IMG/VR virus record: IMGVR_UViG_3300036046_000028
Location: 1-32,569 of that record
DNA from: a virus
DNA length: 32,569 nucleotides
Reading direction: 5' to 3' (one strand)
The position numbers and the translations under genes were made by a program. The notes under the pieces were generated by a model, which saw nothing but the letters and a program-made list of their open reading frames with translations, made no database searches and was not told the origin of the DNA. This document shows positions 13,108 to 29,474 of this stretch, piece after piece; positions within the stretch are counted from its first letter, which is position 1; the number at the start of each line of letters is the position of its first letter.

Positions 13108-13180
13108 GGCGAAACCTAGCCGGTCCCTGCGAAGGGGTCGGCGATGGTCCGGGGGATAGAGACCCCGCTGAAGATGCCTT
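13106..13180 (+). ncRNA. Hammerhead ribozyme, type II, copy 6 (CUGAAGA-U variant)
   Basis: Stem II AAGGC (13106-13110) with GCCUU (13176-13180), extendable by ACU/AGU across one bulged C. GAAA is 13111-13114. Stem III has the UA/GAU internal loop and a GCGA (GNRA) tetraloop. Cleavage follows C13149. Stem I is CGGGG/CCCCG with an 8-nt loop. Core is CUGAAGA (13168-13174) followed by an extra U, the same variant as the type III copy. Stem II includes two bases of gene E's stop codon. Confidence 0.85.
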
Positions 13181-13908: not shown

Positions 13909-14526
13909 ATGGCATACATTGAAAACTCAAGTAATGTCTCCGGCGGGGCACAGGTCTTCGGCGAGGCACAGGTCTTCGGCGAGGCACGGGTCTCCGGCGG
14001 GGCACAGGTCTCCGGCGGGGCACAGGTCTCCGGCGGGGCACGGGTCTTCGGCGAGGCACAGGTCTTCGGCGAGGCACGGGTCTTCGGCGAGGCACAGGTC
14101 TTCGGCGAGGCACGGGTCTCCGGCGGGGCACGGGTCTTCGGCGAGGCACAGGTCTTCGGCGAGGCACGGGTCTTCGGCGAGGCACGGGTCTTCGGCGAGG
14201 CACAGGTCTTCGGCGAGGCACGGGTCTTCGGCGAGGCACGGGTCTTCGGCGAGGCACGGGTCTTCGGCGAGGCACAGGTCTCCGGCGACAGCTACCTTGA
14301 GAAACCCTCAGACATCCTCTGCGGCTACTTTCCTTCCCGCAGCGGTACCTACCACCTGACTCTGACACGCACCGCTCGAAACACCGTGCGTTTCGTGTGG
14401 GGCTGCCGCTCCGGCGCTGACTTCCGGGCCTACCTCTCGGACCCGTCTTACGACGGCCTCCGGGAGGCGCCGCTCGCGATGCTCAAGGCGCTGGAGATCA
14501 ACCTTGGCATCTACCAAGGCGGCTAA
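13909..14526 (+). CDS. Hexapeptide-repeat (beta-helix) early protein H
   Basis: A 205-aa protein with the shared cassette in the form GAGGACACACACATG. Residues 13-126 are 19 tandem hexapeptides of the type A-[RQ]-V-[FS]-G-[EG]. Such G-x-A-x-V repeats fold as left-handed beta-helices in many phage and bacterial proteins. A C-terminal domain of about 75 residues (from YLEKPSDI; includes GTYHLTLTR and FVWGCRSG) is non-repetitive and of unknown function. The repeat-coding DNA is nearly identical from unit to unit. The stop codon TAA overlaps ribozyme copy 9. The opposite strand shows a long Arg/Pro repeat frame that is only the shadow of this gene. Confidence 0.8.
   Translation: MAYIENSSNVSGGAQVFGEAQVFGEARVSGGAQVSGGAQVSGGARVFGEAQVFGEARVFGEAQVFGEARVSGGARVFGEAQVFGEARVFGEARVFGEAQVFGEARVFGEARVFGEARVFGEAQVSGDSYLEKPSDILCGYFPSRSGTYHLTLTRTARNTVRFVWGCRSGADFRAYLSDPSYDGLREAPLAMLKALEINLGIYQGG
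13945..14286 (+). repeat. 19-unit, 18-bp tandem repeat inside early gene H
   Basis: Nineteen in-frame 18-bp units with the form GCRCRGGTCTYCGGCGRG. Units vary at only three sites: CAG/CGG (Gln/Arg), TTC/TCC (Phe/Ser) and GAG/GGG (Glu/Gly). Phe is always followed by Glu and Ser by Gly (Asp in the last), so the last two sites change together. Near-identity points to recent expansion or homogenisation. Confidence 0.95.
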
Positions 14527-16559: not shown

Positions 16560-16645
16560 GCGGTGGTGGCGAAACGGCAGACGCGCGGGCTTTAGGTGCT
16601 CGTATCCATTGAGATTTGCGGGTTCAAGTCCCGTCCACCGCACCA
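16560..16645 (+). tRNA. tRNA-Leu (anticodon UAG) with encoded CCA
   Basis: Acceptor stem GCGGTGG (16560-16566) pairs with CCACCGC (16635-16641), followed by discriminator A and CCA. The anticodon stem CGGGC/GCTCG encloses loop TTTAGGT, giving UAG. The long variable arm is typical of tRNA-Leu, and the T loop reads TTCAAGT. The gene is complete and functional in appearance. It lies 108 nt after the integrase, so it may be or contain the phage attachment site. Confidence 0.93.
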
Positions 16646-19383: not shown

Positions 19384-19398
19384 AGCACGCTCTCCCTC

Positions 19399-19421
19399 AT
19401 AACCCTACCCTAGCAGACAAG
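19399..19421 (+). promoter_or_regulatory. Candidate phage RNA polymerase promoter, site 2
   Basis: Begins ATAACCCTACCCTAGCA and continues GACAAG, with the predicted start G at 19416. It differs from site 3 (29452) at one base of 23. It lies just after the polymerase gene and ahead of the DNA-metabolism genes, as T7 class II promoters do. Confidence 0.7.
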
Positions 19422-19477: not shown

Positions 19478-19729
19478 ATGAAAACATTCACATTTCCGAG
19501 CGGCCAAGGATACCTCAGCGTTCGCTCGACGCGCCCCGACCCGTCGCGCCGGTTCTCCGTTACGGTCACGAACGACGCGGGCATCAGTTCGCGCGGCCTC
19601 ATCGAGCTGGGCAAGTTCCTGATCCAGGCCGGCAAGGACTACTCGAAAGACGAGGCAGAGAACGGAGCGCCGACCATCAGGGGAACCGAGGAAGGCGAGA
19701 CACCCGGCGCAGAGACGCCTGCCGGATGA
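19478..19729 (+). CDS. Hypothetical protein (83 aa)
   Basis: First gene after promoter site 2. The N-terminal half (FTFPSGQGYLSVRSTR, RFSVTVTND) looks like beta strands; the C-terminal 30 residues are acidic and disordered. No family recognised. Its stop overlaps the next start (ATGA), so the two are translationally coupled. Confidence 0.65.
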   Translation: MKTFTFPSGQGYLSVRSTRPDPSRRFSVTVTNDAGISSRGLIELGKFLIQAGKDYSKDEAENGAPTIRGTEEGETPGAETPAG

Positions 19730-19980
19730 GCGAGATGATCCACCTCCTGTTCGACCTCGCCGACCTTGAAGTCGGCCACACGTACAAGTGCGTGGTGGAC
19801 CGGGAGCGGGGCCTGGCCCTCGTACCGACCGAGCGCCGGGGCCGCCCGCGTGCCATCACCGGCCACAAGGTCATCGCGGCGCGTGCTCTGGAGAAGACCG
19901 GGATGTCTCTCCGGGAGATCGCGAAGGCCCTCGGCGAAAGCATGGGCGCCGTCCGCACTGCGCTAGGGAGGCCCCGGTGA
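19726..19980 (+). CDS. Small helix-turn-helix DNA-binding protein (84 aa)
   Basis: The C-terminal half has a clear helix-turn-helix of the resolvase/Hin type: GRPRAITGHKVIAARALEK, then MSLREIAKALGESMGAVRTAL (about residues 58-80). The N-terminal half is strand-like. It may be a small regulator of middle genes. It overlaps both neighbours by a few bases. Confidence 0.65.
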   Translation: MSEMIHLLFDLADLEVGHTYKCVVDRERGLALVPTERRGRPRAITGHKVIAARALEKTGMSLREIAKALGESMGAVRTALGRPR

Positions 19981-20204
19981 TGGTTGTAGGCGCAGACTTG
20001 GGTAATCAGTACCCAGACGACCCGCCCTCCCGCAGGCCCGCGCATCCCTACCAGATCGCCCGAAAGATCGAAGACCTGTGCCTCGACGCGCAGGCTATCG
20101 ACAGCCCCCGCAAGCGAGAGATCGCCATCGCCGTCACACACATGGAGACCGCTGCCATGTGGCTCAACAAGGCGCACTACGCCGCCAAGAAGGACAGCCG
20201 ATGA
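19980..20204 (+). CDS. Acb2-like anti-CBASS protein candidate (74 aa)
   Basis: Start at the ATG overlapping the previous stop (TGATGG). The C-terminal half, SPRKREIAIAVTHMETAAMW followed by LNKAHYA, has the pattern of the Acb2/Vs.4 family: a charged helix, then an A[IL]A[IV]T-[KH]-[LM]E-x-A-x-MW-x-N helix. Acb2 proteins are small helical phage proteins that sponge cyclic nucleotides and so block CBASS (and Thoeris) immunity. Upstream, YQIARKIEDLCLDAQAID would be the first helix. The match is by pattern memory only, and the N-terminus is short, so I treat this as a candidate. Confidence 0.55.
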   Translation: MVVGADLGNQYPDDPPSRRPAHPYQIARKIEDLCLDAQAIDSPRKREIAIAVTHMETAAMWLNKAHYAAKKDSR

Positions 20205-20461
20205 AGCTCGACCTTTCCAACCTTCGCCGGCCACACGTCTCGCGGCTGGCCTTCGTGATCCTCGACGCGATCAAGAACGAGGAACTCGATTACCTGATCG
20301 CTTCCCTTGGCCTGGTCCTTGAAGCCGTCACCGAGGAGAAGAACCTCGACCGATCCGACATCATGACCAAGGCCGCCAACATGCTGCGCACGGAAGGCCT
20401 TGAGGACGACAACTATGTCACCGCCCTACGCAGCTACATCCGCGAGGAGATCGCTGTTTGA
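20201..20461 (+). CDS. Hypothetical protein (86 aa)
   Basis: ATG overlaps the previous stop (ATGA). A helical protein with segments HVSRLAFVILDAIKNEELDY and DIMTKAANMLRTEGLEDDNY; no membrane segment or known motif. It is part of a tightly packed series of small genes (19478-20941) that is probably translated as one coupled unit. Confidence 0.65.
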   Translation: MKLDLSNLRRPHVSRLAFVILDAIKNEELDYLIASLGLVLEAVTEEKNLDRSDIMTKAANMLRTEGLEDDNYVTALRSYIREEIAV

Positions 20462-20944: not shown

Positions 20945-21571
20945 ATGGCAGACACCATCATCAACGTGCGCGGCATCGCGCGCTACCCCTGGCTCAACAA
21001 GCCGGATACCAAGTTCGAAGCAGCCGGCGTGTACAAGGTGGACCTGGAGATCGACGCTGATACCGCAGAGCCGTTGATCCGTCAGTTCACGGACATGCGC
21101 GCGGCGGCCATGAAGGAGGCCCAAAAGGCCCTCAAGGGCAAGAAGGCCAAGGAAGCCGACCTCCCGATCTCACCGAAGCTCGACGAGGACGGTAACGAAA
21201 CCGGCGCCTTCGTCCTGAAGGCCAAGATGAAAGCTTCCGGCACCTCGAAGAAGACCGGCAAGCAGTGGACGCGCGCTGTCCCGATCTTCGACGCGAAGGG
21301 CAAGCCGGCCAATCCGCAAATCTACGGCGGTTCCGAGATCATCCTCGGCGTCAAGGTGCAGGCATGGTCGAACCCGAAGGGCGAGTGCTCCGTCACCTGC
21401 TACCTCGAAGGCGTACAGGTCATCAAGCTGGCGGCCGGCAGCGGCGGCGCATCGGCCTCCGCGCTCGGTTTCAGCGCCGTCGAGGGCGGCTATGTCGAGC
21501 AGGACCCGGATGCCGACACCGAAACGAACGGCGAGGGCGAGGGCGAAGGCGGGGACTACGATTTTGAGTAA
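20945..21571 (+). CDS. Single-stranded DNA-binding protein, T7 gp2.5-like
   Basis: A 208-aa protein that coats ssDNA and binds polymerase and helicase during replication. The N-terminal region fits the gp2.5 OB fold (strands around INVRGIARYPWL and YKVDLEID). The C-terminal tail is acidic and ends with aromatic residues (GGDYDFE), the diagnostic gp2.5 feature that contacts gp4 and gp5. Size is close to T7 (232 aa), and the position before endonuclease I is as in T7. Confidence 0.88.
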   Translation: MADTIINVRGIARYPWLNKPDTKFEAAGVYKVDLEIDADTAEPLIRQFTDMRAAAMKEAQKALKGKKAKEADLPISPKLDEDGNETGAFVLKAKMKASGTSKKTGKQWTRAVPIFDAKGKPANPQIYGGSEIILGVKVQAWSNPKGECSVTCYLEGVQVIKLAAGSGGASASALGFSAVEGGYVEQDPDADTETNGEGEGEGGDYDFE

Positions 21572-28764: not shown

Positions 28765-28946
28765 CTAAGCTTCAGACGGAGGGCTTCTCGTGCAGGCCCC
28801 TGCCGCTCGGCGGCTATCTCATCACCGACCTGGCCGGCAGACCCATGCTTGCCACCCCATACCCTCACACTCCGGTGCACTACCTGGCGCCGGGCAACTT
28901 CGTCGAGCTTGCGCCGACGACCCACAATTACACTTGCGAGGTCTGA
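28731..28946 (+). CDS. Hypothetical protein (71 aa)
   Basis: Overlaps the exonuclease end in another frame, with GAGGTG upstream of the ATG. Basic N-terminus (DQRKRLTKLQTEG), then Pro- and Tyr-rich sequence of strand-like character (GGYLITDLAGRPML). No family recognised. Its stop overlaps the next start (TGATG). Confidence 0.6.
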   Translation: MVPDPDQRKRLTKLQTEGFSCRPLPLGGYLITDLAGRPMLATPYPHTPVHYLAPGNFVELAPTTHNYTCEV

Positions 28947-29449: not shown

Positions 29450-29451
29450 CC

Positions 29452-29474
29452 AAAACCCTACCCTAGCAGACAAG
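29452..29474 (+). promoter_or_regulatory. Candidate phage RNA polymerase promoter, site 3
   Basis: Begins AAAACCCTACCCTAGCA and continues GACAAG, with the predicted start G at 29469. One base of 23 differs from site 2. It lies between the nucleotide-metabolism and virion genes, as T7 class III promoters do. A small hairpin GCTG-GATG-CAGC would form near the 5' end of the RNA. Confidence 0.7.

Follow-up and report, generated by a model that had tools for sequence, protein, structure and literature searches.

Gene block and phage background

The stretch of DNA analysed here, a 32.6-kb (32,569 nt) linear virus record that we call the window, contains, in a block of small genes behind a T7-type RNA polymerase gene, an open reading frame of 74 codons plus stop on the forward strand, which we refer to as the hairpin gene (Table 1). 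Read from the sequence, the encoded protein is MVVGADLGNQYPDDPPSRRPAHPYQIARKIEDLCLDAQAIDSPRKREIAIAVTHMETAAMWLNKAHYAAKKDSR; the segment REIAIAVTHMETAAMWLNKA is present within it. The ATG of the gene lies inside a TGATG (19978–19982) that also holds the stop codon of the preceding helix-turn-helix (HTH) gene, and its own stop shares the ATGA at 20201–20204 with the start codon of the following gene. A preliminary description of this DNA had placed the gene among small coupled genes, and the stop/start overlaps with both neighbours bear this out. The 24-nt sequence ahead of the block is presumably the 'promoter site 2' of that description; in the surroundings of the block, no sigma-70 promoter could be identified.

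Table 1. Features of the hairpin gene and its block (window coordinates)
Feature	Position	Strand	Basis or remark
CATAACCCTACCCTAGCAGACAAG, candidate phage-RNA-polymerase promoter ahead of the block	19398–19421	+	repeated 23/24 at 29451–29474; promoter function inferred
First gene of the block, 83 aa, conserved in synteny (43–52%)	19478–19729	+	synteny comparison
HTH protein, 84 aa, directly upstream, conserved (79–88%)	19726–19980	+	weak HTH matches, below Pfam cut-offs
AGGGAGG, likely ribosome-binding site of the hairpin gene	19965–19971	+	read directly from the sequence
Acb2/Tad1-hairpin gene, 74 aa plus stop	19980–20204	+	PF24729 match, independent profile, syntenic homologues L001/L002
Helix 1, residues 23–38, predicted	20046–20093	+	AlphaFold2, pLDDT about 83–90
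Helix 2, residues 45–73, predicted; carries R46, T53, M60, W61, K64, Y67	20112–20198	+	AlphaFold2, pLDDT about 90 over most; hhalign to T4-type Acb2 profile
Codon R46; invariant in the 7 A3 sequences; aligns with PaMx33 R67 and T4 Vs.4 D61	20115–20117	+	alignments
Codon T53; aligns with T4 Vs.4 T68	20136–20138	+	hhalign register
Codon Y67; aligns with T4 Vs.4 F82	20178–20180	+	hhalign register
Downstream coupled gene, 86 aa, conserved (73–76%)	20201–20461	+	synteny comparison
T7 gp2.5-like single-stranded DNA-binding protein (SSB), end of the block	20945–21571	+	PHROG 112, E 1e-30

Besides the RNA polymerase, which is 35–37% identical to the enzymes of LUZ100 and Pasto, the window encodes a tyrosine integrase (PF00589, 3e-17), T7 endonuclease I (5e-48) and a winged-HTH protein with weak MarR/IclR-like matches. 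Regulator, tyrosine integrase, tRNA-Leu, T7-type RNA polymerase, SSB and endonuclease I come in the same order in LUZ100, Pasto and the window (PMC10134795). Tyrosine integrase and T7-type RNA polymerase together agree with the earlier designation of an integrase-bearing T7-like phage; temperate T7-like phages as such are already known (LUZ100, Pasto; PMC10134795). As in these two phages, a complete tRNA-Leu gene (16560–16645) adjoins the integrase, and it is probably an attachment-site relic. Unlike the window phage, its cultured relatives LUZ100 and Pasto have no member of the hairpin family, nor is one present in seven viral contigs whose RNA polymerases are related (several of these contigs being fragments). 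None of the papers in the collection searched named Acb2 together with Autographiviridae.

Elsewhere in the window, positions 13909–14526 encode a protein of many short ARVFGE/AQVSGG-type repeats that matches phrog_7964 and phrog_5070. Two small ORFs of the accessory region (starting at 13144 and 14563) begin with the identical peptide MVRGIETPLKMPSV, a repeated leader ahead of different small genes. The protein encoded at 28790–29449 matches PHROG 2252 (E 8e-34) and, more weakly, the dATP/dGTP pyrophosphohydrolase family.

Homologues of the hairpin gene

Two viral contigs, L001 and L002, carry homologues that are 72% and 70% identical, respectively, to the window protein over residues 19–72, the first ~20 residues differing from those of the window protein in both length and sequence. 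The order HTH gene, hairpin gene, before the SSB block, is common to all three genomes. For the three pairs among them, codon comparison from residue 23 onward gave dN/dS values of about 0.27, 0.28 and 0.18, which indicates that the hairpin ORF is a real, constrained gene. In L002 one additional gene sits directly 3' of the hairpin gene and is nucleotidyltransferase-like (L002:5166–5741, forward strand; phrog_1614, E 2e-10); as anti-CBASS action has been linked to phage nucleotidyltransferases (PMC10419184), this pairing may merit attention.

A tblastn search of the window protein against phages returned nothing significant; Gordonia phage Jace appeared at E 0.9, and its gp19 was subsequently established to carry the hairpin motif. 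No cellular or prophage relatives were found in a scan of genome contigs, and the 14 control genomes gave zero matches to the hairpin family. Most matches to the L001 protein were to a Klebsiella 'nucleotide kinase'; with E values of 3–10 and a location outside the motif they were taken as chance. Two phage proteins carry the hairpin as part of a longer chain: gp60 of Curtobacterium phage AddiRose (L009:2375–2893) continues for about 90 more residues C-terminal to it, and in SUFG_00048 of Sulfitobacter phage phiCB2047-B (L028:20–586) the hairpin is C-terminal, after about 120 residues.

Sequence profiles and predicted fold

Acb2-type sponges were first described in T4-like and Pseudomonas phages and are increasingly found in phages of Actinobacteria; Acb2 assembles as a hexamer that offers three sites for cyclic dinucleotides and two for cyclic trinucleotides. 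The preliminary description had suggested the Acb2/Vs.4 family for the window protein, which would imply a profile match and paired helices. Indeed, the Pfam model PF24729 (Acb2_Tad1_hairpin) matches the protein significantly, with 38.4 bits (E 1.4e-9) against a curated cut-off of 27 bits, which the L001 and L002 homologues exceed as well. T4 Vs.4 (7e-20), PaMx33 Acb2 (3e-18) and SBSphiJ7 Tad1 (3e-8) match the same model. When searched with an independent profile, built from 20 other members and leaving out the window protein and its two closest homologues, the six frames of the window gave the hairpin ORF as the sole match (E 3e-8, 34 bits), and against this profile 20,000 shuffled versions of the window protein scored 13 bits at most. 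The best PHROG was phrog_717, a weak match (E 0.0027) to the group that contains T4 Vs.4 and PaMx33 Acb2 (E about 1e-32); no NCBIfam or PADLOC model matched the protein.

A further alignment (A3) comprised seven sequences, namely the window clade and four other metagenomic relatives. As a profile it matched residues 6–60 (about 55 residues) of the 76-aa chain in PDB entry 9ptq, 'Acb2 homolog 43' (E 3.9e-6); its matches to Tad1 chains had an E of 0.005. Aligned by hhalign to a T4-type Acb2 profile, the match was 93% (E 2.9e-7) over 27 columns, confident alignment with proven sponges spanning only about 27–40 residues. On sequence grounds, the assignment of the window gene to the Acb2/Tad1 helical-hairpin family is thus supported.

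The AlphaFold2 model, made from seven sequences, has two antiparallel helices (residues 23–38 and 45–73) behind an N-terminus of low confidence, and the expected paired-helix fold was therefore recovered. The agreement of this model with the superfamily is weakly informative, the fold being a generic one. In Foldseek searches the window model found Vs.4 at rank 3 with a non-significant E of 3.1, next to many unrelated hairpins, and nothing significant in a viral library; for a sequence-confirmed relative searched as a control, neither Acb2 nor Vs.4 was among the 50 matches listed. As such hairpins are not separable from unrelated ones, we judged Foldseek uninformative as family evidence.

Helix-2 residues, N-terminus and placement in the family

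In the hhalign register, the T4 helix-2 ligand-site positions T68 and F82 are occupied by T53 and Y67 of the window protein, K64 falls on R79, and M75 and W76 have their equivalents too. The PaMx33 arginine that aligns with R46 presumably has a role in cyclic-trinucleotide binding. For the T4 protein, T68M reportedly lowers Acb2 binding (PMC12657230), F82 stacks on the bound cyclic dinucleotide, and changing Y8 to alanine disrupts dinucleotide binding (PMC12657218). Y8 belongs to an N-terminal GY motif that is conserved across classical Acb2 (the PaMx33 equivalent is Y11). This motif is not recognisable in the window clade, whose N-terminus is variable and unalignable. The two homologues have a phenylalanine 12–13 residues before the helix-1 lysine, as do other short relatives; the N-terminus of the window protein offers only Y11, at longer spacing ahead of that lysine. 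Because the GY motif is missing and the aromatic spacing differs, a cyclic-dinucleotide pocket in the window protein appears uncertain.

A tree of 23 hairpins separated the classical T4/PaMx33 group at 97/100 and left the window clade outside it on a long branch; as 14 of the 20 inner branches are unresolved, only this broad split is usable. On the non-classical side the window clade is accompanied by Tad1 and by short hairpins of actinobacterial, Sulfitobacter and Enterobacter phages, and the short Acb2-like relatives include the 'cyclic nucleotide sequestering protein' of Curtobacterium phages Sunfish and AddiRose. From this weakly resolved tree, the window protein would best be described as an Acb2-like member of the short-hairpin branch within the Acb2/Tad1 superfamily, one that lies outside the classical clade. 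The family suggested beforehand therefore holds at the superfamily level (PF24729) but not, in this tree, for the classical Vs.4/PaMx33 clade.

With 9ptq (76 aa) and the short Acb2-like hairpins the window protein has the signature R-E/R ... T-x-L/M-E-x-A ... K in common, whereas the N-termini are unlike. With T4/PaMx33 Acb2/Vs.4 (PDB 7uq2, 8h2j) it shares the Pfam hairpin domain, but it has neither the I-K-G-Y motif at the N-terminus nor the QP tail, and the region between its helices is shorter. The C-terminal helix motif RE-A-A-TH-E-A-MW-N is found both in Tad1 (SBSphiJ7; PDB 7uav, 8kbe) and in the window protein.

Proposed function and alternatives

By analogy with Acb2, we consider it likely (probability about 0.7) that the window protein acts as an Acb2-like sponge, a two-helix oligomer that binds cyclic oligonucleotide messengers and so keeps CBASS (or type III CRISPR) effectors off. 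The protein would be expressed as part of the gene block that follows the phage RNA polymerase gene (its expression timing is presumed), would fold as a two-helix hairpin and would assemble into an oligomer, a hexamer if the analogy with Acb2 holds. This oligomer would bind the cyclic oligonucleotide second messengers of the host CBASS and, where cyclic trinucleotides are common to both, those of type III CRISPR; with the messenger sequestered, the effectors would stay off. Oligomerisation and the sequestering of CBASS messengers we infer by homology only, and messengers of Thoeris or type III CRISPR are conceivable alternative targets. Since helix 2 retains R46 and T53 but the GY motif seen at the N-terminus of classical Acb2 is missing, cyclic trinucleotides may tentatively be preferred over dinucleotides as ligand.

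Other readings of the same data differ in what the hairpin would do. Among solved structures Tad1 is the closest motif match (matched segment KREIAIAVTHMETAAMWLNK; E 0.43 with the single sequence, 0.028 with a three-sequence profile); it lies on the window clade's side of the tree, on a very long branch, and the PF24729 hairpin occurs in this anti-Thoeris protein as well, all of which would fit a sponge for the Thoeris messenger gcADPR that is functionally nearer to Tad1 than to Acb2. However, the gcADPR pockets of Tad1 combine loops and the C-terminal tail with helices from the partner protomer, and an N-terminal beta domain lies next to them (PMC12043709); the window protein, with 74 aa and no strands in its AlphaFold2 model, has no such domain; we regard a Tad1-like function as decidedly unlikely. 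It also appears rather unlikely that the hairpin fold was kept while the sponge function was lost or changed, for example if the protein now served the neighbouring HTH protein as a small oligomeric accessory. The tight coupling to the HTH gene in 3/3 genomes, the missing N-terminal aromatic motif of the window clade and the presence of family hairpins inside longer proteins (L009, L028) would suit this reading, but helix 2 retains the residues by which the sponge family is defined (R, T, E, A, M, W/F, K), and a generic hairpin need not keep them.

That the likeness is a chance one of an unrelated helical peptide, or that the ORF is not a gene, we hold to be scarcely credible. The protein is short and its fold common, as the many unrelated hairpins among the Foldseek matches illustrate; against this stand the profile statistics (PF24729, A3 versus 9ptq, the 20,000 shuffles), the synteny and the purifying selection, and it is the shuffle control (best score 13 bits versus 34) that disfavours a chance resemblance. 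Doubtful, though possible, is a sponge reduced in such a way that the cyclic-dinucleotide pocket of Acb2 was lost and the helix-2 site alone kept, so that its specificity would be for cyclic trinucleotides (or another messenger). If true, such a protein would be a narrow anti-CBASS/anti-type III CRISPR protein for temperate T7-like phages, and it might avoid triggering Panoptes-type guard systems.

In other respects the window gene extends a known family in a way that could be expected. A compact and divergent sponge of this kind would offer material for asking which residues determine ligand choice, and the conserved copy behind the RNA polymerase gene suggests that temperate T7-like phages also meet nucleotide-signalling defences.
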